From Ruminococcus flavefaciens AE3010 (GTDB lineage Bacteria; Bacillota; Clostridia; Oscillospirales; Ruminococcaceae): a DNA stretch of 64,000 bases. Numbering within the stretch: the stretch's first letter is position 1; every line of letters begins with the position of its first letter. A model generated the notes under the pieces. The model did not search any database and was not told the DNA's origin. It was given only the letters and a program-made list of their open reading frames with translations. The stretch covers positions 1,077,001 to 1,141,000 of the forward strand of contig NZ_JAGT01000001.1 in the NCBI RefSeq assembly GCF_000526795.1. Direction: 5' to 3'. The position numbers and the translations under genes are program-made. Shown in pieces: positions 21,388 through 38,120 of this stretch.

Positions 21388-21957
21388 CTACCTTGTACGA
21401 TGCGGTTCACCAAACCGCTGGTAATGAACTATCTCGCGCTCACGCAGGAAGCGTATGGGATCACGTACATCGGGGTCATCGGCAAGTCTGAGTATATTGT
21501 CATAGGTGGTGCGGGCTTTTTGCTCGGCTGCCATATCCTCGGAGAGATCGGTTATAATGTCGCCCTTGGACTGGAAATAGGCCGCAGTAAACGGTGTTCC
21601 CGAAGCTGCCACAGGATAGATGCCTGTGGTGTGGTCGACAAAATAAGTGTCAAAGCCGCTTGCCTTTATCTCCTCAATAGAAAGATCTTTTGTTAGCTGG
21701 TAAAGTATGGCTGAGATCATCTCGAAGTGAGCTAGTTCTTCAGTTCCAATGTCAGTAAGAAGTCCCTTTACCTCGCCGTATGGCATGGCGTATCTCTGGT
21801 TAAGATAGCGCAGAGACGCCGCAAGCTCTCCGTCAGGACCTCCGAGCTGCGAAATTATGACCTTGGCAAGCTTGGCATTGGGCGTTTTTATCTTTACAGG
21901 GTACTGTAATTTATTGGCATATCCATGTTGTACATAACCACTATAAGAACTCCACAC
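21388..21957 (-). pseudogene. cotJC: cotJC, 3' part (manganese catalase-like spore coat protein), separated from its 5' end
   Basis: From KLQYPVKI onward this is CotJC: GGPDGELAASLRYLNQRY, IGTEELAHFEMI (ferritin-like metal ligands), DMAAEQKARTTYDNIL and FLREREIVHYQRFGE. The family starts MW-x-YE-x-KLQYPV. Here the residues before KLQYPV are unrelated (SSYSGYVQHGYAN), start at a GTG with no ribosome site, and overlap the end of the recombinase gene by 17 bp. The missing start, MWQYE, stands at 37594-37608 directly after cotJB. Joining the two at the shared AA (21914-21915 and the A-run at 37588-37593) restores a 180-residue CotJC in frame. The C-terminus (PHRTR after FGE) is shorter than usual. 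CotJC is a mother-cell coat-associated protein in Bacillus. Confidence 0.9.
21896..21940 (-). other. Left junction of the cotJC element (attachment site half)
   Basis: On the minus strand the 17-bp arm TATGTACAACATGGATA (21920-21936) is followed by TGCC, the crossover AA (21914-21915) and then host cotJC sequence beginning TAAATTACAG. The arm is the inverted copy of the one at the right junction. Confidence 0.8.
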
Positions 21958-23404
21958 TCAGCGAAAGGTCCGAATCGGATTTGCTTCTGCTCATTCTTTG
22001 AGTTTTGGTGTACCATATCTTCCTGACGGCTGCATGGAGCAGCCTGTTTTTCTCAACAGCGTCAGAGCTCCTGAATTTATCGATAATATATTGAAGTCTT
22101 ACTGCTGCTTCATCAATTGACAGCTGCGGTGTTTTCTCTTCCTTTTCGAGCTCCTTTATGGAAGCTTCAAGGGCGCTTATCCTCTCGTTTACTATCCCTG
22201 AACGCTCAATAAAAGTATTTATATCATATACCTCCTGCTCCAGCAAGTCATAGAGCCTTGACAGCTGATGCTTCGATCTTTCAAGCTCTGCCGCAATCAG
22301 CGCCTTTTTGTCAGGCTGTTCCCTTTCATCGGTGCTGCCATTCCATTTCAGTCTTTTGAAGCTGTTCAGCCTATAGCGCAAAGCCGCCATTACAGCTTCG
22401 TCAACAGCTTCTGTATCAGAGCTGACAGTCTTTCCGTGGCACTCTCTGTACACGCACAGCATATGCTCATGTCCGCTGTTAGCGATGTATCTTCGTTTTA
22501 ACTGATGTCCGCAGTTCCTGCAATACAAAATGTGATTGTAATAGTTCCGCAGCACATGGTTTGTATGGAGCTGAGCAGCAGGAGCGGTCTTTTTCTTATT
22601 CTGCACCGACTCAAATATCTCTTCACTGATTATGGGCGCGTGAAGTCCCTTGTAAAGCGTATCGCCGTTTGACTTGGTTTTCCAGCCCACCTTTCCGCAG
22701 TAAACAGGATTAGCAAGTATCTTCTTAATGCTGGGCGGCTCCCAGTATGGGCTTTTCCGAGGACTGATGCCCATTCGGTTCAGCTCACTGGCAATGAATT
22801 TTGCACCGTGACCGTCAAGGTACATGCTATATATGAGCCGCACTGTCTCCGCTTCTTTGGGAAATATCTCAAGGGTATGCACTTTAGGCTCCGGATTTAT
22901 CTTCCGATAACCGTATGGAGCGGTCGTGCCTATATAGTTGCCCTCCCTGACGGAAGCAAGCCTACCTGCCTGCATACGCCGCTTTATGGTTTTGTACTCC
23001 CTGCGGCTCATAAACAGTGAGAACTCGAAGTATTCCTCATCGAATTCATTATCGGGGTCGTATGTCTTGGTCGGAGTGATTATCTTTGTTGAGGAATCCC
23101 GAAAAGCCTGCGCGACTACGCCCTGATCTATGGTATCTCCGCGGGCAAGCCGCTCTATCTCCACAACAAGCACTCCTGCGTATTTTTTATCTGTAACGTC
23201 AGCAAGAAGAGCCTGCATCTGCGGACGGACAGCAATACTGTCACCGCTGACTATCTCCTTGTAAATTCTAACAATATTCAGTTCCTGCTTCTTGGCAAGC
23301 TCCATTAGCATATTCCTGTGGCGGCTCAGTGTCTCTCCCTCGCCCCGTGCTTCTGCCTCGGCATCAGCTCTCGACTTTCGCAGATAAATGCAGTATTCTT
23401 TCAT
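21941..23404 (-). CDS. Large serine recombinase (site-specific integrase/excisionase)
   Basis: 487 residues. The resolvase domain starts MKEYCIYLRKSRAD with catalytic Ser11, and the helix region YAGVLVVEIERLARGD carries the conserved Arg residues. The recombinase domain follows (GTTAPYGYRKI and GISPRKSPYWEPPSIKKILA). The zinc ribbon shows CRNCGHQ and, about 25 residues later, CVYRECHG, and a coiled-coil C-terminal part (AAELERSKHQLSRLYDLLEQ) follows. This is the layout of phage-type large serine integrases and of SpoIVCA, which excises skin from sigK in Bacillus. Its last codons overlap the cotJC fragment. By position it is the enzyme that should act on the cotJC junctions. Confidence 0.93.
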   Translation of the reverse strand: MKEYCIYLRKSRADAEAEARGEGETLSRHRNMLMELAKKQELNIVRIYKEIVSGDSIAVRPQMQALLADVTDKKYAGVLVVEIERLARGDTIDQGVVAQAFRDSSTKIITPTKTYDPDNEFDEEYFEFSLFMSRREYKTIKRRMQAGRLASVREGNYIGTTAPYGYRKINPEPKVHTLEIFPKEAETVRLIYSMYLDGHGAKFIASELNRMGISPRKSPYWEPPSIKKILANPVYCGKVGWKTKSNGDTLYKGLHAPIISEEIFESVQNKKKTAPAAQLHTNHVLRNYYNHILYCRNCGHQLKRRYIANSGHEHMLCVYRECHGKTVSSDTEAVDEAVMAALRYRLNSFKRLKWNGSTDEREQPDKKALIAAELERSKHQLSRLYDLLEQEVYDINTFIERSGIVNERISALEASIKELEKEEKTPQLSIDEAAVRLQYIIDKFRSSDAVEKNRLLHAAVRKIWYTKTQRMSRSKSDSDLSLSVEFL

Positions 23405-23521
23405 TTCATCACGCCCTGTCAGTAAATATAGTCCCTTACATTATAGTATAAAAAGCCCGAAAAATTTACTGTCAAGCTGTACAAGCGATACTGCATACGT
23501 TTATGTAAAGGAGATGATAAT

Positions 23522-23779
23522 ATGGCTAAAAAACGCGGTGGGCTTTCTCTGTGGGAGCGTTCGGGATACGATGTTATTTCCGAGACAGAGACCGAAACCG
23601 AACTCATAGCTGTTCTGCGGACAAAATACAGCGGTGCAGCAATAACCTGTCATATTCCCAAGCATACCATGGAGGAAGAAGAAAGGCTGTCAGCTGATAT
23701 AACATATGCCCTCATGCAGATAGCATACACAGGGCATGATATCAGTCATATGAAGTCCATGGAGGTAATTGTGGACTGA
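23522..23779 (+). CDS. Small protein of unknown function next to the recombinase
   Basis: 85 residues with a strong ribosome site (AAAGGAGATGATAAT before the ATG). It starts basic (MAKKRGGLSLWERSGYD) and is then acidic and mixed helix/strand (HTMEEEERLSADITYALMQI). No known family was recognised. It is divergent from the serine recombinase and ends at a strong bidirectional terminator, so it forms its own unit. A small, partly charged protein beside a serine integrase could be a recombination directionality factor, but that is inference from position and size only. Confidence 0.75.
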   Translation: MAKKRGGLSLWERSGYDVISETETETELIAVLRTKYSGAAITCHIPKHTMEEEERLSADITYALMQIAYTGHDISHMKSMEVIVD

Positions 23780-23798
23780 AAAACATACACATAAAGCA

Positions 23799-23822
23799 AG
23801 CCTCGGGGATATCCCCGAGGCT
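23799..23822. terminator. Bidirectional terminator hairpin
   Basis: A perfect 10-bp GC-rich stem, AGCCTCGGGG with CCCCGAGGCT, and loop ATAT. It separates the convergent 85-residue gene and the PurA-like gene. Confidence 0.85.
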
Positions 23823-23829
23823 GTTTGCA

Positions 23830-25032
23830 TCAGCGCCTTGACAGTGCCTTTTCCATAACTTCCTGACATACTACATCGTCCGCTGTCTCACCGCTGACCT
23901 TGTAGAGCTTGTCTGCGATCGCCATATAGGCTATATCCTCGGGCATGAGCCTGCCTGTAGGACATATTATCGTATCCTCCGTCATATCAAGATGAGTTAC
24001 CGCTATGGACAGCCTTTCACCCTCTGCCATGTGCTTCCTGTCCAGTGCCAGTGAAGCCATGAATTCGGGAAGGTCGAACCAGCCATACCTGAAATTCCCT
24101 TGAAACTCATTTGGAGCATTAGTCTTGTCGTACAGCCCGAACTGCTTTGCGATGTCCTTTGATTCCGTATCGAACCTGCCTGCGCCGTGTCTTGTGAAGA
24201 AAGACCTTGTCACGTAGCACACCTCTGTGTCACGCTTTTCAAGTCTGTCCAGTATGGCGCGGATATTCTTCATGCCTGTGCTTGAGGGCGTAAGATGAGG
24301 AAAGTAGTCCTCCCTGTACTGATCCAGCATTAGTCCCTGTGCGCCCTCGAATACTGCCGTATCGTACTGCTCGATGACCTGCTCGTCTGCTTCGCGGCAC
24401 TGTGCTGCCATAGCGTAAAGGTCGTCAAGATAGTTTTCCGTGAGCAGCTCACTGCCCAGTATATCCATAAGATCATCTTTGGCTCTGCCTGTGATGCCGA
24501 AGTCATCGGCTCTCTTTGGACAGTATTCCATGTTAATGGAGTTTATCCGCGCAGCCAGTATTTTTCTGTCTGCTTTCAGCATATCCCCGTATCTGAGTGT
24601 ATATCTGCTGTCACGGTTTCGCACTATGGTCTCGAATATCCCCACTCCGCAGCTGCCGTGACGGCTCTTGCCCCGCATCGTCTCCACAAACTGATTAAGG
24701 AGCATATCGCAGGGGAGCGTCACTATGCAGCGGCTGTCAATGAAGATATTCCCCATATCCTTTCCGAGAACAGCAGCCTCCTTTGAAAAAAGCATAGGGT
24801 TAAGGATAAAATATTCGGAAAGATATGTGTCCGCGCCTGCAAAGCCGCCCGAACCTATATGTGAGAAAACGTGCCTTTTGCCATCGGCAGTACATACGGT
24901 ATGACCTGCCTGAGCGCCGCCGTTGCTGCGGATATTTATGACGTTATGGCTGAGTCGGCAGTAATAGTCCGTCATGAGACCCTTGCCCTCGTCGCCAAAA
25001 TTCGCTCCTATGACCGCATATGCTTTTTTCAT
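23830..25032 (-). CDS. Divergent adenylosuccinate synthetase-like protein (PurA/PurZ-like)
   Basis: 400 residues, a little shorter than PurA (about 430). Conserved: GANFGDEGKG with catalytic Asp14, AGHTV with His44, FEGAQGLMLDQ and a late THLDM in place of the guanine-binding KLD. Changed: the IMP-loop GTTGRGIGP is RHGSCGVGIFE, and the aspartate loop region reads FQGNFRYGWFD. The catalytic Asp/His pair therefore survives while substrate loops differ, so it may act on another nucleotide or base-like acceptor, as phage PurZ does on dGMP. It is the last gene of the J-domain, vWA, PurA-like set (9 bp after vWA) and lies inside the cotJC element. Housekeeping purine synthesis is unlikely to be its role. 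Confidence 0.82.
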   Translation of the reverse strand: MKKAYAVIGANFGDEGKGLMTDYYCRLSHNVINIRSNGGAQAGHTVCTADGKRHVFSHIGSGGFAGADTYLSEYFILNPMLFSKEAAVLGKDMGNIFIDSRCIVTLPCDMLLNQFVETMRGKSRHGSCGVGIFETIVRNRDSRYTLRYGDMLKADRKILAARINSINMEYCPKRADDFGITGRAKDDLMDILGSELLTENYLDDLYAMAAQCREADEQVIEQYDTAVFEGAQGLMLDQYREDYFPHLTPSSTGMKNIRAILDRLEKRDTEVCYVTRSFFTRHGAGRFDTESKDIAKQFGLYDKTNAPNEFQGNFRYGWFDLPEFMASLALDRKHMAEGERLSIAVTHLDMTEDTIICPTGRLMPEDIAYMAIADKLYKVSGETADDVVCQEVMEKALSRR

Positions 25033-25041
25033 ATTATCACC

Positions 25042-25950
25042 TCAGAATCTTATTATTCCGCTGAGTACTCCCCTTTTCCGTGCAGGAAGTCCGCTGAGAG
25101 CGTTCCTTACAGCAAGCTGTGTATCGCCGTCCCATGAGTTGATTATGTCCTCTTTATCACGTCCTGCGACGCTTTCAAGTAGGGATACCATTATCTCGGG
25201 GATAGCGTTAACGTCTGTTACCGCTATGGCTCTTTCGCCCATGAGCCTGCGCCATTTAGGCAGCTTTACCACCTGTTCGCTGCGTCTGTCCATTACCATG
25301 AGGTGGAAGACGTCGTACTTTCTGCTCACCTGCGCAAGAAGTGCAGCTGTGTCGATATCCTCTCTCACGTTGTCGCCGAATACCTTTTCTATCTCCTGCT
25401 TCAGAAGCTTTTCGGGGTAGCCGTCATCGCCGAGAGTGAAGATAACGCCCTTTTGCTTACGCTTTTCCCATGCGTCTGTCTTTGTCTTGTTAGCCGCGAA
25501 ATACCATACCAGCGGATAGCTCTCGAAGCCATTTCCGCCGCCGCCCTTTTCAAACCACAGGTCTGTGAGCTGGCTCGCTATGCGTATATCGGACTCGAAC
25601 TGTGTAGCCTGCAGCGGTGAACGGTCGCATCTTGAATCGCCCACTGCGCAGAACATTATCTGGGGACCCTCTACGGGCTGACGTTCAAGTATATCCTTGA
25701 CCATTTCGCCAAGCTTCTGGGCAGTAACATTGAGCAGGTCGCTCATTGAGCCTGTAACGTCAAGTCCTATAATGATAGGAGTTGTTACAGGGTGGTCTGC
25801 CGAATCGAAGCTTTCTCTCACCTTTATCAGGCGCGGATCGTACTTCGGATCGATCTTTGTTGCGCTGTAGATATCGTTAACCTTTTTTCCTGTGATCTTG
25901 GCAGATGAATATTTTTTCCAGTCTGCTGAGCTCCATGCACCGTATCCCAT
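25042..25950 (-). CDS. von Willebrand factor A domain protein
   Basis: 302 residues. After a short aromatic N-terminus (MGYGAWSSADWKKYSS) the vWA fold begins at about residue 58, with the metal-ion-dependent adhesion site DVTGSMS (residues 64-70). Further MIDAS positions lie near GGGGNGFESYPL and FTLGDDGYPEK. It has no signal peptide or membrane span, so it is cytosolic, like TerY-type vWA proteins that act with kinases or chaperones. Its neighbours, a J-domain/pseudokinase upstream by 26 bp and the PurA-like enzyme downstream by 9 bp, support a single operon. The function is not known; it may be a scaffold that binds one of these partners. Confidence 0.85.
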   Translation of the reverse strand: MGYGAWSSADWKKYSSAKITGKKVNDIYSATKIDPKYDPRLIKVRESFDSADHPVTTPIIIGLDVTGSMSDLLNVTAQKLGEMVKDILERQPVEGPQIMFCAVGDSRCDRSPLQATQFESDIRIASQLTDLWFEKGGGGNGFESYPLVWYFAANKTKTDAWEKRKQKGVIFTLGDDGYPEKLLKQEIEKVFGDNVREDIDTAALLAQVSRKYDVFHLMVMDRRSEQVVKLPKWRRLMGERAIAVTDVNAIPEIMVSLLESVAGRDKEDIINSWDGDTQLAVRNALSGLPARKRGVLSGIIRF

Positions 25951-25976
25951 AAATGTACCTCCTGTAAGTTTTATTT

Positions 25977-26948
25977 TCAGCCTGCAATATCAGGCAGTCT
26001 GACGTTCATATGTGTGAATCTTCTTTCACCGTAGCCCTTGATTATAGCTTCTTCCCACTTTTCCATCTCCTCGGAAGCCGAGGTGCTGCATATGCTCTCG
26101 GCATAATCCCTTATGGCAGACGGAGCTTCATCGGTCAGTATCCTCCTTGCAAGCGCCTTTACACTTTCAAGGTCGGTGATGTGACGAGCTATACCGTCGG
26201 TCATGGAATCCGCGGAGAGAGAATTGTACACGGTTGACTGAACTCCTGTCATCTTGTTTCCCTCTCTTGCGGCGAACCACCAGCCGCCCCCAACTCTCAG
26301 AGTATGCTGCTCAGGGTCAATGAGGAGATTTTCCTCTGCGAGACAATTCCAGACTATCCCTTTCAGCTCCGCGTAGCAGCATATCCCAAGCAGACGTGAT
26401 ATTATCCATGCAGCGTGTCGGTCGTCCAGCTTGCCGCCGTAGAAATCCAGCACCTTTGTCAGAGGAAGCTCCCCTGCACGCTTGCAGGTCTCTATGAGCA
26501 GTCCCTCATCGGTATCGAATATGCGCGATACTACGGGAAGAAAAACCTCTGCCTGCGCCAGTATCTGCTGTGGAAGATACTCCCTGAAAAACAGGTCTGA
26601 CCGCGCTTCGGAATTGTAAAAGCAGTCGGTTGAATTGCCGTCGATGAACAGATACACGTTCCTCTCGCCGATGTACTCCGCTCCGTACTCCTGCGTGATA
26701 TCCATGAGATATTTTACTCCGTAGGCGTGGCTGCCGCTGTGGAAAAGCTTTTCCTTAGCGGTATGAGCTTTTTTCAGCTTGCCGTACAGCTCGTTGATGA
26801 CTGCCGAAGCCTCGGGAGCACGGGGGTCGCTGCACTTATCGGGGTGGTACTTCACCATCAGCGCCATGTATATGGGCTGAGCCAGTGCCATATCATCAGG
26901 AAAGATATCGCTGCAGCACTTGCATTTCAATATCTCGGATATATCCAT
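25977..26948 (-). CDS. J-domain protein with a C-terminal pseudokinase-like domain
   Basis: 323 residues. The N-terminal 65 residues are a J domain: helix II VKYHPDKC contains the HPD triad (residues 35-37) that stimulates Hsp70. The rest is unusual. The order LPLTKVLDF, AAWIISRLLGICCYAE, GIVWNCLAEENLLID and LRVGGGWW follows the C-lobe of protein kinases. The catalytic-loop Asp is missing (WNCLAEENLLI in place of HxDxxxxNxLI) and the DFG position reads VGGGW. I read it as a pseudokinase, with moderate certainty. It starts at the divergent operator region, so it is the first gene of the cassette and probably recruits a DnaK-type chaperone to it. Confidence 0.78.
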   Translation of the reverse strand: MDISEILKCKCCSDIFPDDMALAQPIYMALMVKYHPDKCSDPRAPEASAVINELYGKLKKAHTAKEKLFHSGSHAYGVKYLMDITQEYGAEYIGERNVYLFIDGNSTDCFYNSEARSDLFFREYLPQQILAQAEVFLPVVSRIFDTDEGLLIETCKRAGELPLTKVLDFYGGKLDDRHAAWIISRLLGICCYAELKGIVWNCLAEENLLIDPEQHTLRVGGGWWFAAREGNKMTGVQSTVYNSLSADSMTDGIARHITDLESVKALARRILTDEAPSAIRDYAESICSTSASEEMEKWEEAIIKGYGERRFTHMNVRLPDIAG

Positions 26949-27218
26949 GTGTCTCCCTCCTTTTTTGTTAGAATCAAAATGATATTATCAAACTCCAAAA
27001 ATAAAAGACGTCCGAATTAATATCCTTTTGTTACTATCATAATAACATTATCAGTTTGATTTGTCAATAGCTTTGAGCACGTTTCTCCGTTTATCACAAT
27101 CAGATACTATCATTTTGATATCATCTATGTACATAGTCCACAAATCGCTGTCTCGCCGTATTGACACAGGCAGCTTATATGTGTTATTATTAATCAGATA
27201 TTATCGCTGGAGGTCACT
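26949..27218. promoter_or_regulatory. Divergent control region with three copies of a TATCATTTTGAT-type operator
   Basis: The motif GATA-N-TATCATTTTGAT occurs at 27103-27119 on the plus strand and at 26971-26989 on the minus strand (16 of 19 bases identical). A third copy, TATCAGTTTGAT, lies at 27049-27060. The region separates the J-domain/vWA/PurA-like operon from the NrtR-like gene. The repeats are good candidates for binding sites of that regulator, controlling both sides. Confidence 0.65.
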
Positions 27219-28010
27219 ATGGATTACGATATAACCAAATACGACAGGCCCTCTGTAGCTGCGGATATTGTGGTATTTACCGTCCGCAGGAGCAGCAGCG
27301 AAAGCTACAGACACCTTTCAAAGCCTGTGCTTTCCGTGCTCCTTATCAGGCGTACAGAAGCCCCCTTTGACAATATGCTGTCGCTCCCCGGCGGATTCTG
27401 CTGCCGTGAGGAGACTATTGAAGAAACTGCATTCCGCAAGCTGAAAGAGAAAACAGGTGTGGACTGCCCTCCCCTTTCCCTGCTCTGCAACCTTTCAAGA
27501 CTGGGCAGAGACCCACGCGGCTGGATAATTTCCTGCTGCTACTGGACTGTCATCGAGTACACTAAGGCGACTACGGAAAAAAACGCGGAATGGTATGAGG
27601 TCTCGCTGAAAGAGACCGACGGCAGATACACTCTTGTGCTCACCGACGACAACGGCAAGGAATACGTCTCAGAGGTCATGCTGAACAATCCCAACGAGCT
27701 GTATAACCAGTCCGCAGAGGCTGATATCCCTAAAAACAGCCTTGCATTCGACCATGCGGAAATAATCGTCAACGCCCTGCTAAAGCTGAGAAGCAGCCTT
27801 GAAAAGCCCTATGCCGCTTTCAGACTGCTTCCCGAGAAGTTCACCCTCACCGACCTCCAGCAGGTCTACGAAGCTATACTGGACAAGAAGCTGATAATGG
27901 CGAATTTCAGGCGCAAGATAGCTCCCTACGTTGAGGAGACAGGAGACATTGAGGGCGGTGCGGGACATCGTCCGTCGAAGCTCTTCACGAATAGATCATA
28001 TAAATTGTAG
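27219..28010 (+). CDS. NrtR-like Nudix/winged-helix transcriptional regulator
   Basis: 263 residues with GGAGG before the ATG. The N-terminal Nudix domain has LPGGFCCREETIEETAFRKL, but the Nudix box reads RKLKEKTG where active enzymes have REUxEExG, so two metal-binding Glu are Lys. Inactive Nudix domains of this kind serve as ADP-ribose sensors in NrtR. The C-terminal part (LLPEKFTLTDLQQVYEAIL, then NFRRKIAPYVEETG and RPSKLF) is the NrtR winged helix-turn-helix. NrtR controls NAD salvage genes elsewhere. Here it is divergent from the J-domain/vWA/PurA-like operon, with shared operator repeats, suggesting that the cassette responds to an NAD-derived or related nucleotide ligand. It is the best-supported regulator in the element. 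Confidence 0.88.
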   Translation: MDYDITKYDRPSVAADIVVFTVRRSSSESYRHLSKPVLSVLLIRRTEAPFDNMLSLPGGFCCREETIEETAFRKLKEKTGVDCPPLSLLCNLSRLGRDPRGWIISCCYWTVIEYTKATTEKNAEWYEVSLKETDGRYTLVLTDDNGKEYVSEVMLNNPNELYNQSAEADIPKNSLAFDHAEIIVNALLKLRSSLEKPYAAFRLLPEKFTLTDLQQVYEAILDKKLIMANFRRKIAPYVEETGDIEGGAGHRPSKLFTNRSYKL

Positions 28011-28036
28011 GGGCGGATATTATCCGCCCGAAGTGT
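28005..28036. repeat. Short GC-rich intergenic repeat (GTAGGGG family)
   Basis: TTGTAGGGGCGGATA leads into a near-perfect palindrome GGGCGGATA-T-TATCCGCCC. Its first bases provide the TAG stop of the NrtR-like gene. A related sequence (TTTGTAGGGGAGAACGCCCT) is at the right edge of the window. Confidence 0.5.
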
Positions 28037-28095
28037 AAGGGATGGCGTCCTCGGCGCCCCCTGCTTTATGCCGCCATTCATCAGCTGCCAAGCCT

Positions 28096-28127
28096 AAAAA
28101 AGCCGCGTCAGTCGACGCGGCTTTTTT
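28096..28127. terminator. Bidirectional terminator
   Basis: A 9-bp stem AGCCGCGTC with GACGCGGCT, loop AGTC, flanked by A5 and T6, so it can end both the NrtR-like gene and the convergent dockerin gene. Confidence 0.9.
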
Positions 28128-28186
28128 CGTTCAATATTCAATATCGATCGACAGGAATACACTGCTGTTCAGATAAAAGCATCATA

Positions 28187-30160: not shown

Positions 30161-30371
30161 AATGATCTGACTCCTTTCATGCTTTCTTGATCATAATACT
30201 GCTTTTCAGCTTATATGAAAAGCAGATTTTCCCCGATCGGTCTACAGGCATATTATAGCACATCCCAAATAAAAATACAAGCTTTGAAGCCGCTGTTTTT
30301 TAGAAATCCCCACGAAAAAACAGCACGATACAGAACACTTACTGTCAATCCGCTCCGCTTAAATGCCTGAT

Positions 30372-30409
30372 AAAAAAAGATGTAAGAGTCAAAGACCCTT
30401 ACATCTTTT
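30372..30409 (-). terminator. Terminator of the subtilisin gene
   Basis: On the minus strand AAGATGTAAG pairs with CTTACATCTT around an inner GGGTC-GACTC stem, followed by TTTTTTTA. Confidence 0.92.
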
Positions 30410-30421
30410 CCGTATATGTTA

Positions 30422-33400
30422 TCAGCATTCTTCTTTTCTGCGTGATCTGCGGGAAGCGAATACTGCTGCTGCACCAATGGTGATGAAAGCAGCGGCTGCG
30501 GCTAAGCTGTGATCGATGATTCCTGTCTTCGGGAGATCAACTGCCTTGCCGTTTTCGTCGGTACCCTTACCCGAGAATCGGTCTACCTTGTATTCCGAAC
30601 CGTCATCAAATCTGATAGAGACTGCGCCGTCATCGGAGCTTACTGTCTCGGAGACCTTTACTTTCTTGCCTGCCTTTTTGCTGCGGTCGGCTGCTGCCAT
30701 ATCCGCAAGCTTCTTATCGCTGTAGAATTTTGTTTTTTCTAAGGTCTTTTCGCCTGCATATGTGAGCATATCCATCTGACCGTCAGCTCTTGTGAGTGCT
30801 ATCTCTGTATCGGAGATGGCTGCTGCCACAACTGTTTCAGTCTTATCGCCCGAGGTGAGCTCAACTGCCTGTGTTCCGATCCAGTTATACTTCATTGTCT
30901 CCTTTGAACCGTCCTCGGCATTGATAACAGTGATATTGCCCTTGCCGTCCGAGCTGTAGTACTTCAGGCTGTCACCGCTCCTGCAGCTCCAGAGACCTGC
31001 GGTAAAGAGATCCTTTATCTCTGGAAGTGAGATAAGATCAATTTCATTTCCGAGCATATCGAAGCACTTTCCGCCCAGTGGGTCAGCTGCAAAGCTGTGG
31101 CCGTCCATGAACTCCATACTGTATCTGTTGCTGCTGTCAAATGTTCCGAACATAAGCTCGGGACGAACGCCTGTTATGCGCTCACAGTAGTCTGCTGCCA
31201 TATCGCGGAGCTGAGATAATGTGTAGAACTTGACATCATCTGCATTCTGATCGGGAACGTATGTAAGACTGTACTTGCTTCCGTCAGCCATTGTCACTGA
31301 GAATTTTGAGAGCTTATTGAATTCGGCATTTAATGTCTTTTCATCGTCCCTGCCCTTGTTGCAGGTTATCACACCGCTGCCGTATTCTGCTGTGCATTCC
31401 CATTCAACGCCGTTCTCTGCGGAGTATACAACAGCCTTGCCGTCTGCATTGTAGAGTACATAATAATGATTTGAACTTATGTCGAAGCCCTGTGATACAC
31501 GGTAAACGCCCTCTCTGATATACTCAAATCTAACAGGCTTGCCGCTTGGATCAACTGCCTCATTCCTGAATCTGTCAAAAGCTGTATACTCAGCTATCTT
31601 GGTTCCGTTCTTGTCCATGAGGCGCACGATACCCATTCCGTTTTCGTCGTATGCTGCCTCGGCTGATGCAGCCTTGCTGTCGCTGTGGGCATTGTGGTAC
31701 TCAGTTACGATAGCTTTCATTTCAGGGGTGGTGATATAATCGGAAACGCCCAGTCCGTCGGAGCCTGCATAGAACAGCTTTTCGGAAGTGCCGTCATTCC
31801 ATGTGATAACAGCGTTTTTCTTATCAGTAAAGGATATCTTTCCTGTTCTGGTCTCAGTTGCTGTTCCGTCGGATATATTCATGGTAACGTTATCGCCGCT
31901 CTGCTCAAAGGTGAAGTCCTTTTCGTGAGCGCCGCTCTGGTAATGGATATTGCCTGCATTGCTGTTCAGGAAATTGTAGTAAACGTCGTTTTCTCCGCCG
32001 TTCTTTGACCACCATAATCCTGATTTCAGATGTGTGATATCATTGCCCTCAGACATTATCTCTGTTATATTGAATGCCTTGTCCATAGCTGCTACAAGAT
32101 AATCGTCAAGGTCGGTCACATCGTATGTTAAGGTGATTTTTCCGCTCTCGCTCTCATACTTGTATGCGGGAATGATATCGGAGAAGTCATACGAATCAAT
32201 GATATTCTGCTCATATGCGTCTGCGGTACCCATAACAGCATTGATAACGAGAGAGTCGGAGTTTACGGGATTTCTTAATTCCTCAGGCATGCCTAAAACG
32301 GGGGTATAAACAGAGCTTAAAGTACCATTGATGTTTTTCATCTCTGTGAGCTTGGGGCTTTCTGCTGTGTATTCTCCTGCGATTCCGCCGTTGCCCTTAC
32401 CCATGATGTAGATACCGTCCATATTCTCATCGGCGGAGGTGATCTCCAGAAGCTTTCTGCCGTTTTCTTCCTTGGTTTTGATATCAAGTGTAGGTGCTGT
32501 TTTATCTATTATGACGGGGACCTCATAGGTCTGAGGGTTCTTGTCGGCACCGTCATAGCTGATATGTCCTGTTATTACGCCCTTGTATTTTCCGTCAGGA
32601 TAATCGCCGGGTTTCAGTTCCGATACATAGCACACAGGAGTATATGCAGGGAACATCTCGTCGCCCTCTGAGTCTGCCACCAGATTGTTGTCGCTGTCGT
32701 AGATCTTTATGCCTGCAAGGTATGCATTTCTCCTTGTTGTCATAAACACTTCGACCTGTTCAGCCATTCCGTCTCCGTCGGGAGAGAGGTATACGCTGTC
32801 TTCCTTACACTGTGCAAGTGTATCATTGTATTCATCGTCAAAGTACTGAGTAATTGCCTGTGGGAACATTGCTATCTCTTCTGCTGCCTCAGCAGGAAGC
32901 CTTCCCATAAGGTTGTATAAAGCTTCGGCATTAGCTGCAAAGGAGCTTGAAGCAGGGAAAGTGCCGTCGCCTGACTGCTCATATAATGTGTAGGGTTCAA
33001 GGTCCTTTGTACCGTTGTGGAAGATAGGCACCTGTGCCCAGTCTCCGTAGAAGCCCATAACAGGGATAGAGATATCGCAGCAGTTTTCCGCACCGCTGAG
33101 AACGATATATCCCTCAACAAAGAAACCGTTGGGGAATACGGAGCTGTGAGCTTCAAGGTCGGCAGCTGAAAGCTGTGCGCTGACGTTTACTGTACGGGTC
33201 TCCTGTGCCTTTGCTTTCAGCAGTGACGAAAGATCAGCTGTGACGCCGATATTGCTTGCGCCGCTGATGGACAGCTCTCCCGATCCGTCGCCCTCTGCTG
33301 CGGCGCCGTCCTCGGCTGTAAGTACCAGCTTTGCCTCCTTGAATTCAACGTCCTCATCGGTGAAGTTCCTGATATCAATATCGAAGCTGAGCTGAGAAGT

Positions 33401-35389
33401 GAGCTTGTCTTTCAGCTCCACCTTTGCAAGACCGCTGCTGCCTGTAAGGATAACTCTGTCATTGAGCACGTTTTTCATGTTCACAAGTCCAGCGCCCTGA
33501 CGGCGTGGACTTTCGTATACATCTCCGTCTGAGAAAAGTACGGCTGAGTTCATCATAAGATTCTTGATGAAAGCTGTCTTTTCAGCACCTGTGAGCTCCA
33601 GACCGTTTTTCCTGAGATACTGATCGAATACAGCAGCACAGCCTGCAACATAGGGTGAAGCCATTGAGGTACCCTCCAGCTGCTTTATCTGGTTGCCGTA
33701 TGCGGCAGATGAAACTGAACCGCCGATGCCTGTGATATCGGGCTTGAGGGTAAGGTCCTCCGCAGGTCCGTATGAGCTGAATTCGTTGACGCCTCCGTCA
33801 AGGGGAGTGATAAGGCTCAATGTACTGTCAAAGCGTATCTTCTTAGATTCAGCCTCTTTCATCTTGTTTCCGTCATTCAATGAGATAAACACAGACGGGA
33901 AATCCATTCCGTCCATCATCATTGTTGCAAGACCATCCTCTTCAACGTTGTCGCATACCACCATAGCTATGGCTCCTGCCTGCTGAGCATTGAATGCCTT
34001 TTCCCAGAAGCTTATTTCACCTCTGTCAAGAAGAGCTATCTTTCCCTGTATGTCCTTGCCCTCGTAATCCTCGAATGCACCGAGACCGCAGTATACATAC
34101 TCGTATACGTCATCGCCGAGATGATCGCTGAGTGTAATGTTTTCGCCGCTGTTGTAGGGTATCTCGTCATCAAGTCCCTCAATAAGGAAACATGGATCAC
34201 GGCGTACAGAGTTATTGGCAGAAGCAACGCACATTGCCTCCTTGAAGCCTGCGGGTTCGCCTATGGTATGGGTATCGGGGTCTGATGTGCTGATATCGCA
34301 GTGCTCGCCCTGACCCATAAGGCTGTTGCTGTCATTGCCTGCTGCTGCAACTACCACGACGCCTGCATTGTTGAGAGCTGCTATAGTATCCTTGTACGGA
34401 GCGCTTTCAATATTCCCTCCTGCACCGCCGAAGCTGAGATTGATAACGTCTGCCTTGAGCTTTGCGGCGTCCTCCAGAGCTGCAAGAAGAGCGTCCGTAT
34501 CGACGGAGCTCACATATATACCGCTCATTTCGTCAATGGCAGTCTGTCTGAACACCTTCATCATTACGAGCTGAGCGTCTCTTGCAATGCCCGAGAGCTC
34601 CTTGCCGTCGGAATCGCTTATCATATCACCTGCCGCAATGCCTGCAACGTGAGTGCCGTGATATTCCTGAGGGTCAGTGTATTCATAGGGAGTATCATCG
34701 GCATAATCGATAACATAGGGCAGCTTGCTGCTGATATACGCCTTGTCGGGGTCTATCTTTACGTTGAGGTCGCCTGATACTGCTATGATATCGTCCTTTG
34801 TGAGCTTGTTTTCCTTATCGTCAATGGGAGCGAACATGCTGTGAGTGATGTCAAATTCAGTGTCCAGAACTGCAATGACCTCGCCCTCTCCGAAATAACC
34901 CGTAGTCTCTCCGAAATATCCAGCCTCGCTGAGCTCGGGTGCTGTGTAGAGCTCGGGCTTTACAGTATTCACAGTCTGTACCTTTGTTACTCCTTCTACC
35001 CAGCGGCAGGCTCTTGCTTCGTCCAGAAGCTCCTCGGGAAGCTCACAGGAAAAGCCGTTTGTGAGCACGTTATAGCGATAGCCTATCTCAAGGTCGGGAT
35101 AGAGGGTACGCAGTGATGCTTCCGCTTCGCTGCTGATACGGCTGAGGGCTGCTGCCTTTGCGTCTGATTCAGCAGTATCGAGATAGTCTGTTCCCATTTC
35201 TGCTGCTTCTTCTCCTGCAAGCACAGCTTCTCCGCTGAGACTGATTATGACGGGAACCAGATTTTCGGCTTTCGCTGCGTCATATTCAGCTGCTGCCAGT
35301 GCAGCCGAGAGTCCGCAGTTCATTACCGAGGTCCCTCCGAGCACTGCCGCAGCTGTCATGCTTAGCAAATGGCGTGTAAATTTCTTCAT
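30422..35389 (-). CDS. Cell-wall-anchored subtilisin-family protease (lactocepin/C5a-peptidase-like)
   Basis: 1655 residues. Signal peptide (1-33), propeptide, then the S8 domain with Asp176 (VIAVLDTEFD), His244 (YHGTHVAGIAAG), Asn352 (AAAGNDS) and Ser575 (GTSMASPYVAGC). A protease-associated domain is inserted at about 410-515. Fn3-like and other beta domains follow, then two related modules that begin SGLWWSKNGGEN and AGLWSCRSGDSL and end LFYAG and LTYAG. The C-terminus is a sortase signal: LPKTG (near 1619), hydrophobic span, RRSRRKEEC. It should be a surface enzyme that cleaves large proteins. It lies in the cotJC element, between the sigma/anti-sigma pair and the EF-hand/dockerin gene, and has its own terminator. 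Confidence 0.93.
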   Translation of the reverse strand: MKKFTRHLLSMTAAAVLGGTSVMNCGLSAALAAAEYDAAKAENLVPVIISLSGEAVLAGEEAAEMGTDYLDTAESDAKAAALSRISSEAEASLRTLYPDLEIGYRYNVLTNGFSCELPEELLDEARACRWVEGVTKVQTVNTVKPELYTAPELSEAGYFGETTGYFGEGEVIAVLDTEFDITHSMFAPIDDKENKLTKDDIIAVSGDLNVKIDPDKAYISSKLPYVIDYADDTPYEYTDPQEYHGTHVAGIAAGDMISDSDGKELSGIARDAQLVMMKVFRQTAIDEMSGIYVSSVDTDALLAALEDAAKLKADVINLSFGGAGGNIESAPYKDTIAALNNAGVVVVAAAGNDSNSLMGQGEHCDISTSDPDTHTIGEPAGFKEAMCVASANNSVRRDPCFLIEGLDDEIPYNSGENITLSDHLGDDVYEYVYCGLGAFEDYEGKDIQGKIALLDRGEISFWEKAFNAQQAGAIAMVVCDNVEEDGLATMMMDGMDFPSVFISLNDGNKMKEAESKKIRFDSTLSLITPLDGGVNEFSSYGPAEDLTLKPDITGIGGSVSSAAYGNQIKQLEGTSMASPYVAGCAAVFDQYLRKNGLELTGAEKTAFIKNLMMNSAVLFSDGDVYESPRRQGAGLVNMKNVLNDRVILTGSSGLAKVELKDKLTSQLSFDIDIRNFTDEDVEFKEAKLVLTAEDGAAAEGDGSGELSISGASNIGVTADLSSLLKAKAQETRTVNVSAQLSAADLEAHSSVFPNGFFVEGYIVLSGAENCCDISIPVMGFYGDWAQVPIFHNGTKDLEPYTLYEQSGDGTFPASSSFAANAEALYNLMGRLPAEAAEEIAMFPQAITQYFDDEYNDTLAQCKEDSVYLSPDGDGMAEQVEVFMTTRRNAYLAGIKIYDSDNNLVADSEGDEMFPAYTPVCYVSELKPGDYPDGKYKGVITGHISYDGADKNPQTYEVPVIIDKTAPTLDIKTKEENGRKLLEITSADENMDGIYIMGKGNGGIAGEYTAESPKLTEMKNINGTLSSVYTPVLGMPEELRNPVNSDSLVINAVMGTADAYEQNIIDSYDFSDIIPAYKYESESGKITLTYDVTDLDDYLVAAMDKAFNITEIMSEGNDITHLKSGLWWSKNGGENDVYYNFLNSNAGNIHYQSGAHEKDFTFEQSGDNVTMNISDGTATETRTGKISFTDKKNAVITWNDGTSEKLFYAGSDGLGVSDYITTPEMKAIVTEYHNAHSDSKAASAEAAYDENGMGIVRLMDKNGTKIAEYTAFDRFRNEAVDPSGKPVRFEYIREGVYRVSQGFDISSNHYYVLYNADGKAVVYSAENGVEWECTAEYGSGVITCNKGRDDEKTLNAEFNKLSKFSVTMADGSKYSLTYVPDQNADDVKFYTLSQLRDMAADYCERITGVRPELMFGTFDSSNRYSMEFMDGHSFAADPLGGKCFDMLGNEIDLISLPEIKDLFTAGLWSCRSGDSLKYYSSDGKGNITVINAEDGSKETMKYNWIGTQAVELTSGDKTETVVAAAISDTEIALTRADGQMDMLTYAGEKTLEKTKFYSDKKLADMAAADRSKKAGKKVKVSETVSSDDGAVSIRFDDGSEYKVDRFSGKGTDENGKAVDLPKTGIIDHSLAAAAAFITIGAAAVFASRRSRRKEEC

Positions 35390-35456
35390 TTTTCATCGGT
35401 CCTTTCTGATTATAATGCTGTAGTTGATATAACGTTTTTTGAATTGAGCTTTAGTA

Positions 35457-35478
35457 TTACATAAGCGTGACCTCCTTT
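35457..35478 (-). promoter_or_regulatory. Start-stop element (RBS-ATG-TAA) before the protease gene
   Basis: On the minus strand a strong ribosome site AAAGGAGG (35471-35478) stands eight bases before ATG (35460-35462), which is directly followed by TAA (35457-35459). It lies about 70 bases upstream of the protease start. It may bind or stall ribosomes in the leader, or be the relic of a lost gene. Confidence 0.6.
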
Positions 35479-35517
35479 GAAATTAGTTGTATATTGTTTA
35501 TTGCGTATTATCTGTGT

Positions 35518-36867
35518 TTAGTCTAAGCGTTTTAATTTCATAGCCGTGCCGTCGGCTGTTTCGGAAGTGGTTCTTAATACAACAGGCTTGAAATTGAAGT
35601 ATTCAATACCAAGTTCATACGGGGTATCTTCGCCCTGCTTTTTCAGGATTATCCTGTTGCTTTCAACATCGTATACCTCGCTGAAATCATCAAGGCTCGT
35701 GAGCTCGATGCCGTTTGCTTTCCCGAATTCCTCAAAATCACTGAGAAAGTCTCCGCACTCAATAACTCCGTTATTGTACCTGTATATCTTCACATGATTG
35801 TTCATGTTTTCCTGAGCTTCTCCGTACTGATAATTACAGATCAGTTCAAGTCTGTTGTCGTCTTCAAGATCGGTGAAAAAAGCAGAGGTTTTGTCCTTGT
35901 ATCCCGTATATTCAACGAATATCTCGTTGGTGTCCTCATTGATAAAGTAGGTGTTCTCTGTATCGGAAGACAGGCTTTCCGTGTAGATATGCCAGTTTTT
36001 AATGCCAAAGATACAGCCGAAATAAAAATTGGCATATATCGGGTACATGTATGCAGGTCCGAATGTATAATCTTCAAGTTCCAGTTCGTAATCCTTGTCA
36101 AAGTATCTGCTTTTAAGCAGCAGCTTGTTCAAGTCGGGAGAATACTCATCTGAAAAATCCACATAGGAGGATATATCAAGATCATGTGCGTCAGAAAAAG
36201 CTTCATAATGATCATAAAAATTTGCTGCCTCGATCACACCGTCCCTGAGCTTGAATACGATGGCATGATCGTTGGGTTTGCCGCCGACTACTGCGAGTAT
36301 GCGGTTGCATATGAGTTCATCAGCTCCGTCATTGTCAATATCCGCAAGATAAGCGATAGGCTTGCCTTCACTGCATTCGGAATAAGCAAATTCAAAGCCC
36401 GTGTCTTCGTTTATAAATGAGTATGACCAGGTATTGTCATATTCCAGATGCTTATCTATGTCAAGATGCCAGTTCTCTACCCCGAGAATAGGTCCATCGT
36501 AATCAGCTGTTATTGTTATGGGAGCATACGTGTTTTCATCGTCGTATGATACTGCATCGGAAGCATTGTTTCCTTCGATAGTCCCGCGGTCATTCAGCTG
36601 AGAATTAAAGTACACACCGCCTGTTACAGTTACGGCAGCTATTGCCAGCGTCGCAGCAGCTGACCATGCCTTGCTCCACATGGGACGGTGGTAGACCTCG
36701 ACTTTATGCTCCTGAGTTTCCTCATAATAGTCCTCGGTGTCATTTGTTATACGTCTGAATATCTTTTCAGCCTCTGCATCATCTACAGCCCTGTATTTAT
36801 ATGAGAGGGCTTCAAGAGTTTTCATATCGGCATTTTCGAGTATATTAAGATCCAATTTCTTTTTCAT
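35518..36867 (-). CDS. Single-span anti-sigma-like membrane protein with a duplicated extracellular sensor
   Basis: 449 residues from the ATG at 36867 (GAAGGAG seven bases upstream; the TTG at 36882 overlaps the sigma gene and is less likely). About 65 cytoplasmic residues precede one span (WSAAATLAIAAVTVTGGVYF). Outside, two homologous blocks of about 150 residues occur. Each has a GxxNWH start, FINEDT, a LADIDNDGADELICN/FTDLEDDNRLELICN segment like VCBS/FG-GAP calcium repeats, and a DFSEVY/DFSDEY near its end. It directly follows the ECF sigma gene, so it is likely its anti-sigma factor, although no zinc-finger anti-sigma motif is visible. The outer part would sense an extracellular ligand. 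Confidence 0.75.
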   Translation of the reverse strand: MKKKLDLNILENADMKTLEALSYKYRAVDDAEAEKIFRRITNDTEDYYEETQEHKVEVYHRPMWSKAWSAAATLAIAAVTVTGGVYFNSQLNDRGTIEGNNASDAVSYDDENTYAPITITADYDGPILGVENWHLDIDKHLEYDNTWSYSFINEDTGFEFAYSECSEGKPIAYLADIDNDGADELICNRILAVVGGKPNDHAIVFKLRDGVIEAANFYDHYEAFSDAHDLDISSYVDFSDEYSPDLNKLLLKSRYFDKDYELELEDYTFGPAYMYPIYANFYFGCIFGIKNWHIYTESLSSDTENTYFINEDTNEIFVEYTGYKDKTSAFFTDLEDDNRLELICNYQYGEAQENMNNHVKIYRYNNGVIECGDFLSDFEEFGKANGIELTSLDDFSEVYDVESNRIILKKQGEDTPYELGIEYFNFKPVVLRTTSETADGTAMKLKRLD

Positions 36868-36878
36868 AAATATCTCCT

Positions 36879-37442
36879 TCAAACAGATATGTCATTGTCT
36901 GAAATCAGTCTGCGCAGCTTTTTCAGAGCTCTGCTGCTGCGCACTCTTATCATTGCAGGTGAAAGGGAAACAAATCCTGAGATCTCAAATGAGCTCCGCC
37001 CATAGTAATACTTCTGTATTATTATGGTGGAATCAGGCTCTCCGAGACTGTCTATGAGCTTCATAAGCGTTCGTTGTGTTTCTTTTTTTTCGGCAGATTC
37101 GGAAATGTTTTCATCTGACGGAAGAGCAGCAGTATTTTCATCGTCCAATGAAATGCTGTTTGTGTTTCTGCATAATCTATGGTAATACGCCGCCGACTTT
37201 CTCAGGGCAATAGTTGCGATAAAGCCCTTTATATCATCATTTGCGGCTTGCTTGGATTCATATGAACCGAATACATCAGTAAAAATATCACTTACACATT
37301 CGTCTATATCCTCGCGGCTGCCGCAGCTTCGCAGGCGGTTGAATGCAATAGTATAAACGTAGTTAAGATACTCATCAAATATGGTGCGCTGAGCTTTGTT
37401 CTTATCAGTTTTCAAAAGCTGCTGATACTCACTGTGCTTCAA
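36879..37442 (-). CDS. ECF-type RNA polymerase sigma factor
   Basis: 187 residues from a TTG start with AAAGGAGGA well placed. Region 2 is visible as YVYTIAFNRLRSCGSREDIDE followed by CVSDIFTDVFGSYES. Region 4 is visible as LMKLIDSLGEPDSTIIIQKY, then a helix-turn-helix SSFEISGFVSLSPAMIRVRS and a basic end KALKKLRRL-like. It is the first gene inside the right end of the cotJC element and is followed after 11 bp by the anti-sigma-like gene. Its likely targets include its own operon and possibly the downstream surface genes. Confidence 0.88.
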   Translation of the reverse strand: MKHSEYQQLLKTDKNKAQRTIFDEYLNYVYTIAFNRLRSCGSREDIDECVSDIFTDVFGSYESKQAANDDIKGFIATIALRKSAAYYHRLCRNTNSISLDDENTAALPSDENISESAEKKETQRTLMKLIDSLGEPDSTIIIQKYYYGRSSFEISGFVSLSPAMIRVRSSRALKKLRRLISDNDISV

Positions 37443-37489
37443 TATCTGCTTCCTCCTTTCACTGAAAAGTATTCATTATATATATTTAC

Positions 37490-37498
37490 ATTATAACA
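37490..37498 (-). promoter_or_regulatory. Extended -10 promoter of the sigma factor gene
   Basis: TGTTATAAT on the minus strand (TG-N-TATAAT), about 48 bases before the TTG start. The -35 position reads TTATAT, a poor match, as is common for extended -10 promoters. It lies inside the element. Confidence 0.5.
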
Positions 37499-37565
37499 TA
37501 AAAGTGTAGCATATATAAAGATATTTTTTTATTTTAATCAAATCAACTACGGTTTCCGATGTGAT

Positions 37566-37608
37566 ATGTACAACATGGATACGAGACTTTTTTCTCATAC
37601 TGCCACAT
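37566..37608 (-). other. Right junction of the cotJC element (attachment site half)
   Basis: On the minus strand, host cotJC sequence ATGTGGCAGTATGAG is followed by an A6 run (37588-37593), GTCTCG and the 17-bp arm (TATCCATGTTGTACATA) starting at 37581. This arm is the inverted copy of the left-junction arm. Confidence 0.8.
37594..37608 (-). pseudogene. cotJC: cotJC, 5' part (five codons)
   Basis: ATG TGG CAG TAT GAG, with AGGAG at the end of cotJB as ribosome site, gives MWQYE, the conserved CotJC beginning. Read on into the element it becomes KKVSYPCCTYHIGNRS and stops. It is the missing start of the cotJC part at 21388. The resemblance of the first element codons (KKVSYP) to KLQYP may reflect similarity between attP and attB. 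Confidence 0.88.
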
Positions 37609-37611
37609 AAT

Positions 37612-37860
37612 TTATCTCCTTTCCCACGGCCACGGATCGTCTGTCCATGTCCAGCGCTCGTCGTTGTCTGCCTGCTCGGGAGTGAGCGGACCGTATTTTC
37701 TTGCATATTCCTGTACAGCATTCTCGCGGAGCTGTCTGTACTTGCGGAACATAGTCAGCGCCTGCCGACAGTTGGGGTGGGTATCAAGATAAAGGTTCAG
37801 CTCCTTGAGAGTAAAATCGTATTTCTTTATCTTGCTCAGAAGCATTCTCTGTTCATTCAT
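37612..37860 (-). CDS. cotJB: Spore coat protein CotJB
   Basis: 82 residues from the ATG at 37860 (GGAGGGG upstream). Family features: LLSKIKKYDFTLKELNLYLD near the start, THPNCRQALTMFRKY, and the aromatic end WTWTDDPWPWE. Its ATG overlaps the cotJA stop (ATGA) and its end carries the ribosome site of cotJC. In Bacillus the cotJ operon is read by sigma-E in the mother cell. Here the operon is cut one codon set later, inside cotJC. Confidence 0.93.
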   Translation of the reverse strand: MNEQRMLLSKIKKYDFTLKELNLYLDTHPNCRQALTMFRKYRQLRENAVQEYARKYGPLTPEQADNDERWTWTDDPWPWERR

Positions 37861-38120
37861 CTGCTGTCCCCTCCTCCCCAAAACGGCAGGTCAAGCTCGG
37901 GAAAGATAGTGCCCCTGCTCAGAGCCTCGTCATCGCCGTAGGTCTCGCCCCACTGCTGAAAGGGTACATACGCCATCGCAAGAGGAGTACTTGCAGGGAA
38001 ACGTGATACGGTATCGTTCGCTTTATTTGTAATGTTGAGCTTCATTTCCATTGCGCCGAGAGAGTTCTCACGCTCATGGAGTATCAAGCCGTCCATATCG
38101 TCAAAAAGATCCAATTTCAT
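37857..38120 (-). CDS. cotJA: Spore coat protein CotJA
   Basis: 87 residues from the ATG at 38120, which has AAAGGAGG nine bases upstream; the longer frame to 38171 has no ribosome site. The family core is clear: LAMAYVPFQQWGETYGDDEA, LSRGTIFPELDLPFWGG. It is the first gene of cotJABC, on the right flank of the element. No convincing sigma-E promoter could be assigned by eye in the 85 bp upstream. Confidence 0.93.
   Translation of the reverse strand: MKLDLFDDMDGLILHERENSLGAMEMKLNITNKANDTVSRFPASTPLAMAYVPFQQWGETYGDDEALSRGTIFPELDLPFWGGGDSR

Follow-up and report, generated by a model that had tools for sequence, protein, structure and literature searches.

Can a spore-coat gene that lies in two pieces, thousands of base pairs apart, still serve its host? 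The question is raised by a stretch of 64,000 nt from Ruminococcus flavefaciens AE3010 (contig NZ_JAGT01000001.1, forward strand, 1,077,001–1,141,000), hereafter the window, in which cotJA, cotJB, and the first codons of cotJC lie on the minus strand and the cotJC body is 15,678 bp away. Probably, the intervening element is excised by its own large serine recombinase, likely in the sporulating mother cell, and cotJC is thereby rebuilt. In its structure (a split sporulation gene, a recombinase, a shared core, and a frame that is restored), the element belongs with the sporulation gene-intervening elements.

A Split cotJC in the Window

The gene pieces and the recombinase are placed as follows.

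37857..38120, minus strand: cotJA (Pfam PF11007, E value 3.4e-20, over the cut-off)
37612..37860, minus strand: cotJB (Pfam PF12652, E 8.3e-32, over the cut-off)
37589..37608, minus strand: cotJC 5′ piece as far as the AA of the predicted crossover, sequence ATGTGGCAGTATGAGAAAAA
21941..23404, minus strand: large serine recombinase, 487 aa (PF00239 and PF07508 over the cut-off; phrog_95 integrase, E 5.7e-99)
21388..21912, minus strand: cotJC 3′ piece, running from the AA of the predicted crossover through the stop codon (PF05067 in the joined protein, E 1.1e-54)

The start codons ATG-TGG-CAG-TAT-GAG stand at 37594–37608 (minus strand), and the interruption falls at codons 6–7, inside the coding sequence of a sporulation gene. 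When the element is taken out, a 180-codon gene is restored; by Pfam it carries the Mn_catalase domain (PF05067, E 1.1e-54) in cotJABC order, and its product aligns with the solved manganese catalases PDB 6j42, 4r42, and 1jku. A first-pass annotation of this DNA had proposed that an element of about 15.7 kb separates cotJA-cotJB-MWQYE from the cotJC body, that a large serine recombinase adjoins this body, that the pieces rejoin in frame, and that the host is of Ruminococcus type. Sequence and Pfam matches confirmed the coordinates, the recombinase at 21941–23404 (ending 4 bp from the attachment-site arm beside the body), and the 180-codon frame; the Ruminococcus-type host holds as well.

The host genome contains spoIVA, and a search of it found no second cotJC, the next matches having E values of 0.5 and 0.7. 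Uninterrupted cotJB-cotJC was present in 28 of the 28 relatives read, which were the best-scoring ones and no random draw, and one of them (G135, locus L004) is of the same genus. The annotation had suggested a search for just such a relative and had named, as the pattern that would count against reconstitution, splitting in all relatives with a second intact cotJC elsewhere; because the genome lacks a second cotJC and the same-genus gene is uninterrupted, this pattern is not the one found. The split is also more than chance, since other Ruminococcus show a split at the same codon beside recombinases that are 60–80% identical. A second, uninterrupted CotJC-like paralogue with 34–40% identity is common in the genomes surveyed (G302, G168, G401, and others), and none at this level was found in the window's genome.

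Attachment Sites and the Predicted Join

The ends of the element share an AA core and 17-bp arms, and removal between them restores the 180-codon frame.

21920..21936: attachment-site arm at the left end, 17 bp, TATCCATGTTGTACATA on the plus strand
37565..37581: attachment-site arm at the right end, TATGTACAACATGGATA on the plus strand, exact reverse complement of the left arm
21913..37590: element, 15,678 bp, ends set by the predicted crossover from the arm-AA spacing in relatives and in free attP (the phage-side attachment site)

A recombinase scan of named genomes kept 80 loci, 29 of which (L033–L061) form the Ruminococcus set, where the recombinase has one of two neighbours: the cotJC body, encoded on its own strand, or the end of cotJB, encoded on the opposite one. 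Both ends of the codon-5 element can thus house the recombinase, and the core, read from it, is AA or TT depending on the end. Counting the window, 14 loci have the recombinase beside the body, and in 13 of them the dinucleotide 7 nt inside the arm was AA, the exception being L049 with AG. In the opposite orientation it was TT in all seven loci that the script matched; L053 and L054, missed by the script's motif, show TT on reading by eye. The arm is present in L034 and L052 with no adjoining cotJ sequence and with neither AA nor TT. Because this spacing of AA or TT is fixed in relatives and in free attP, the crossover most likely falls at 21911–21912 and 37589–37590, with AA at its centre.

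Excision at the central AA would give ATG TGG CAG TAT GAG AAA AAA TTA CAG, that is, TATGAG-AAA[AA]A-TTACAG, reading MWQYEKKLQ, with GTATGAGAAAAAATTACAG as the joined sequence in the window's genome and GGATATGCCAATAAAGTCTCGTATCC as the predicted circle junction. The uninterrupted gene of G135 (ATGTGGCAGTATGAGAAAAAACTTCAA) likewise reads MWQYEKKLQ, and codon 6 encodes N in none of the 28 intact relatives. The join proposed earlier, MWQYENKLQ (GTATGAGAATAAATTACAG), holds as an in-frame junction, but K is likelier than N at codon 6 given the AA spacing and the intact relatives, and the joined and circle-junction sequences proposed with it are each one base off the central-AA prediction.

In-Frame Rejoining and Purifying Selection

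The same exercise was extended to 46 fetched genomes with a split cotJC, and all pieces were in hand in 43, comprising 54 junctions. All 43 can be joined to an uninterrupted frame free of stops, at shared cores of 2–13 nt, and some joins are less exactly placed because the cores vary in length; the three genomes outside the 43 are G027, which carries stops and a frameshift, and G472 and G393, with the first piece on another contig. The gene lies in four pieces in G482 and G318 (three elements, same strand, right order), in three pieces in G176, G420, G395, G286, G401, G470, and G168, and in two pieces in the other 34. The lower ungapped identity of G453, G475, G391, and G006 is due to a one-residue insertion within a piece, and the smallest element, about 2.3 kb, is found in G453.

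The ratio of nonsynonymous to synonymous substitution rates (dN/dS) between genomes that are both split was 0.014 for the window and R. flavefaciens MA2007, 0.016 for G281 and G513 (one-contig genomes), 0.010 for G158 and G248, and 0.035 for G222 and G168; other pairs of the window's clade with a usable dS gave 0.019–0.042, and dS was saturated for many pairs. Purifying selection therefore acts on the cotJC pieces in split genomes. The pieces alone are unable to make a whole catalase, yet they are conserved, which argues for selection on the joined product. The possibility raised at first pass that the window's element is a remnant is unlikely, because the recombinase is intact, the arms are exact, and dN/dS is so low between two split genomes.

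Distribution of Split cotJC

In the host order, cotJC lies in two to four pieces in at least 116 of the 395 genomes sampled. cotJC was matched in 101 of 148 genomes of the family sample, many in pieces, and in 340 of 395 of the order sample. Partial-score genomes (59 and 67, picked by eye from the best scores among the 340) were searched again, and a gene was called split when two or more complementary pieces were found, which held for 53 and 58, with five more from direct reading (G000) or from the family search (G019, G124, G013, and G097). Six of the 59 and nine of the 67 were not counted, being intact, single-piece, ambiguous, or with the second piece not among the matches listed. The total of 116 is a lower bound, as the re-searched genomes were the best scores among the listed matches.

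In a matched set of 197 genomes, cotJC was split in 51, and the control ribosomal protein S7 gave two matches in one (186 with a match, one weak, G321), while the longer control SpoIVA gave two matches in four (187 with a match, four of them weak and single, G233, G266, G278, and G297). sigK was discarded as a control because its model matches sigma paralogues, and yabG, with two weak matches in the 197 genomes, is missing from the order to the extent that its model can tell.

Outside the order, breaks at these places recur in other members of the class (103 of 156 genomes with a match; split, for example, in G518, G528, G544, and G662) and in a few genomes of a wider phylum sample (126 of 199 with a match; for example, G684 and G735). 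Seen from the recombinases, a cotJ or cotJC piece is present in 71 of the 80 loci overall, comprising 25 of the 29 Ruminococcus loci (some kb away in L039, L042, and L052) and 46 of the 51 more distant ones, mostly ending or beginning near codons 62–67. Named cultured species are included: the pieces lie 34 kb apart in Paenibacillus sp. VTT E-133291 and 46 kb apart in Sedimentibacter acidaminivorans DSM 24004, both with an in-frame join, that of Paenibacillus being one codon longer as picked by the script than at the longest shared stretch found by eye.

Several side observations concern the arrangement of pieces. About 157 kb in G544 (C1:2541492, 2698411) and about 92 kb in G013 (C1:284205, 375992) separate pieces on one contig and the same strand; if these stretches can be excised, the elements are of very large size. 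In G759 (C2) and G851 (C2 and C3), an intact cotJC has several partial copies nearby (codons ~29–138 and ~71–176), which may represent cassettes, remnants, or insertions that happened repeatedly. Beside collinear pieces, further fragments from the 3′ part or the middle of the gene occur in G401 (C1:1028281-1028478) and in P. albidus (G666, C37 and C94), and the latter also has a separate intact cotJC-like gene.

Break Sites and Recombinase Clades

The breaks are discrete, at codons 5–7, about 30–33, 63 to 65, and 134–136. Codons 35, 65/68, and 136 line up in the computed alignment with the metal ligands of manganese catalases, and all break sites except codons 5–7 lie beside them. At the DNA level, the break sites reach the 88th–99th percentile of conservation in 28 intact genes (21-nt windows, best within 3 nt).

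A tree of 63 recombinases grouped those of codon 30 (17 of 17), codon 135 (10 of 10), and codon 63a (20 of 20), and placed codon 63b together with codon 5 (seven and nine), each site group with a support of 99–100. Four clades by break site thus emerge, with long-branch warnings attached to the deeper joins; the codon-5 recombinases are those of the window and of eight of the 29 relatives. A first tree of 58 rows agrees; it lacked seven candidate rows (five recombinases and two other ORFs, open reading frames), and the five recombinases were restored in the fuller tree. The nesting of codon-5 recombinases within codon-63b ones in the first tree was dropped, since the fuller tree leaves the branching order in their shared clade unsettled. 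One element of G482 carries recombinases of both codon-63 clades.

Viral Contigs and Free Attachment Sites

In viral contigs L186, L187, L188, and L190 (L187 and L188 read alike), the palindrome is complete: it stands next to a homologous recombinase and has AA or TT as its central dinucleotide, and the sequence available around it contains no piece of cotJC. By sequence, these palindromes are free, unintegrated attP sites, and both core versions, AA and TT, are seen among them.

The recombinase is near a cotJC piece broken at codon ~135 in viral contigs L175–L178, L173, and L174, so elements classed as viral integrate there too. The codon-135 recombinase had only distant matches in phage records, and the codon-30 recombinase a single distant match in viral contigs. 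Phage records KF010834, CP003186, OP172779, and PP197245 and locus L194 encode recombinases 40–52% identical to that of the split cotJC of P. albidus. Judged by these recombinases, the phages, which are of Paenibacillus, Thermoanaerobacterium, Dorea, and Terrisporobacter, may use cotJC as their bacterial attachment site (attB).

A Candidate Directionality Factor

23522..23779, plus strand: 85-aa ORF, candidate recombination directionality factor (homologues beside related recombinases; conserved upstream block)

A homologue of this ORF accompanies the recombinase in 13 of the 29 Ruminococcus loci and four of the 12 viral loci, the loci being truncated, and the protein is conserved (28 of 54 homologues aligned), which makes it the best candidate for the directionality factor, as a guess from sequence. 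The block upstream holds a CATAnnnT −10 element in 11 of 14 cases (shuffles, mean 2.5, maximum 9), and a sigma-K-like site lies upstream of cotJA in seven of 19 (shuffles, mean 0.5, maximum 4); these counts are guides only, as the sequences are related and the shuffles simple.

Proposed Mechanism and Its Alternatives

The element, bounded by serine-recombinase attachment sites, would be cut out by its own recombinase at the central AA, with the 85-aa protein as the presumed factor that releases excision. This would likely occur in the mother cell during sporulation, and the rebuilt cotJC would then be expressed to yield a spore-coat manganese catalase. We infer from the sequence that excision takes place and is confined to the mother cell, the forespore keeping the element. 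Mother-cell control of the window's element is proposed by analogy with the skin element of Clostridioides difficile, in which the recombinase CD1231 is described as constitutive and the timing depends on the directionality factor CD1234, whose production is restricted to the mother cell (PMC5025042).

Several observations weigh against this mechanism. The excised chromosome, the circle of the window's element, and cotJC expression are predictions, and the genomes sampled are mostly metagenome-assembled. G027, with stops and a frameshift, appears to be broken, and G172, with stops, looks decayed. The pieces are not collinear in G132, G404, and G505, which are among the 116, and their order or orientation is not joinable by simple excision. 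Seven loci have the arm or a related recombinase without adjoining cotJ (for example, L034, L041, L045, and L052), and the strict Ruminococcus attP pattern had no match in viral contigs, the free attP sites having come from protein-based scans. The predicted structure of the 85-aa protein is weak (mean predicted local distance difference test score, pLDDT, 71) and had no significant PDB match. A sigma-K −35 was found upstream of its ORF in none of 14 cases, and the −10 also fits TATAAT in several, so housekeeping expression is possible.

One alternative is active lysogeny without developmental control, in which elements leave at random or under stress in a few cells and selection works via those cells or lineages. 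In its favour are the existence of free attP forms and of phage-like carriers, the ambiguous promoter type of the 85-aa ORF, and the population heterogeneity reported for the yin element (PMC10747680). However, dN/dS values as low as 0.010–0.016 in split genomes require regular use, two or three elements in one gene would have to be lost at random together, and cotJC is a spore-coat gene whose use is tied to sporulation, as is well established; this explanation is regarded as improbable. Considerably less likely still is that phages broke cotJC and left pseudogenes that the coat does without. The few copies with stops or frameshifts (G027 and G172) would suit it, as would the discussion in PMC12122855, according to which Bacillus subtilis without the protein has no clear defect, whereas the strong purifying selection, the in-frame joins in 43 of the 46 fetched genomes, and the restriction of breaks to a few codons that each have a separate recombinase clade all argue the other way. 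That excision is unneeded, the body being translated from a GTG start inside the element end, is the least credible of the three. The window loses only six or seven codons and this GTG opens a 189-aa frame, but the breaks at codons ~30, ~63, and ~135, the kept recombinase, and the symmetry of the attachment sites would be left unexplained, and the body would lose its position behind cotJA-cotJB.

Beyond reconstitution by excision in the window, a broader scheme is favoured with less confidence. cotJC in Clostridia would be a multi-exon gene at the DNA level, with up to four exons and three mobile elements whose own recombinase lineages are aimed at conserved codons beside the di-manganese site, and the catalase would appear only after all excisions in the terminal mother cell. 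The four clades would have converged because expression is confined to where element loss costs nothing, and one clade would have moved between sites.

Relation to Known Gene-Intervening Elements

No cotJC-intervening element was found in the open-access literature searched, with preprints and most subscription papers outside the search. The targets listed for such elements in sporulation are sigK, spoVFB, spoVR, spsM, gerE, and yabG (PMC5595907, PMC4191935, and PMC10747680). The skin of C. difficile resembles the present element in its large serine recombinase, split sporulation gene, and rebuilding by excision, and differs in the gene, in having one element, and in that excision is known there and deduced from sequence here; it is called an exception in clostridia (PMC5025042), whereas split cotJC is common in the host order. 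The gin element in gerE of Bacillus cereus ATCC10987, for which a serine recombinase plus a directionality factor are described, is likewise non-phage, sits in a small late sporulation gene, and has a shared end core; unlike the window's element with its one recombinase, it is reported with three recombinase genes, one acting on gerE (PMC5595907), and some cotJC genes elsewhere are interrupted by several elements that each bring a recombinase of their own.

SPbeta in spsM, vfbin in spoVFB, vrin in spoVR (PMC4191935), and yin in yabG (PMC10747680) are also phage or phage-like elements in mother-cell genes, and sprB there is described with a sigma-E/K −10 and an imperfect −35, to which the 85-aa ORF may be alike; by these accounts, each is found in one or a few species with a single insertion per gene. 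The phi027 prophage of C. difficile R20291 has an attachment site adjoining a CotJC-type gene, which in the accounts given lies downstream of attR (the right-hand junction site) and is not described as split (PMC11222575 and PMC12122855). The Anabaena nifD, fdxN, and hupL elements (PMC4191935) share the logic of several excisable elements and a terminal cell, in other genes and hosts, with one element per gene as described there against up to three in the 180 codons of cotJC. A further likeness is that the window's recombinase matches the XisF model, but with a score that falls far short of the cut-off.

cotJC is best read as a new target gene for developmental reconstitution of the skin/sigK kind, with up to three elements per gene. 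Developmental gene reconstitution in spore-formers has so far been described as isolated examples. In the present case a single small coat gene is a repeated target: recombinases of four clades split it in roughly three of every ten genomes sampled from one order, and named cultured species beyond that order show the split as well. Counting can now test why late mother-cell genes are chosen by mobile elements, and many serine recombinases are supplied with their attachment sites. The split would account for cotJC being called as truncated in genomes from gut and rumen, and the joined cotJC is predicted to be a readable DNA mark of sporulation in organisms seldom seen to sporulate.

Contents of the Element

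The remaining genes of the window's element are cargo.

23830-25032, minus strand: adenylosuccinate synthetase-like protein (phrog_1211)
25042-25950, minus strand: phrog_2971 protein (PHROG match)
25977-26948, minus strand: kinase/DnaJ-like protein (DnaJ match under its cut-off)
27219-28010, plus strand: NUDIX protein with NrtR-type winged helix (domain matches)
28187..30160, minus strand: dockerin protein (PF00404)
30422..35389, minus strand: secreted subtilase (PF00082, E 5.6e-39)
35518..36882, minus strand: 454-aa protein, no family matched
36879..37442, minus strand: extracytoplasmic function (ECF)-type sigma factor-like protein (Sigma70_r2/r4 matches under cut-offs; phrog_1740)

The 10 main element proteins matched no structural, packaging, or lysis PHROG, only an integrase and some metabolic ones, so the genes by which a prophage is recognized are not seen in the window's element; PADLOC gave no match for six element proteins. 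The stretch 23830–28010 forms a phage-like metabolic block, and a relative of the dockerin protein, 84% identical to it, lies in the element that splits cotJC in L040.

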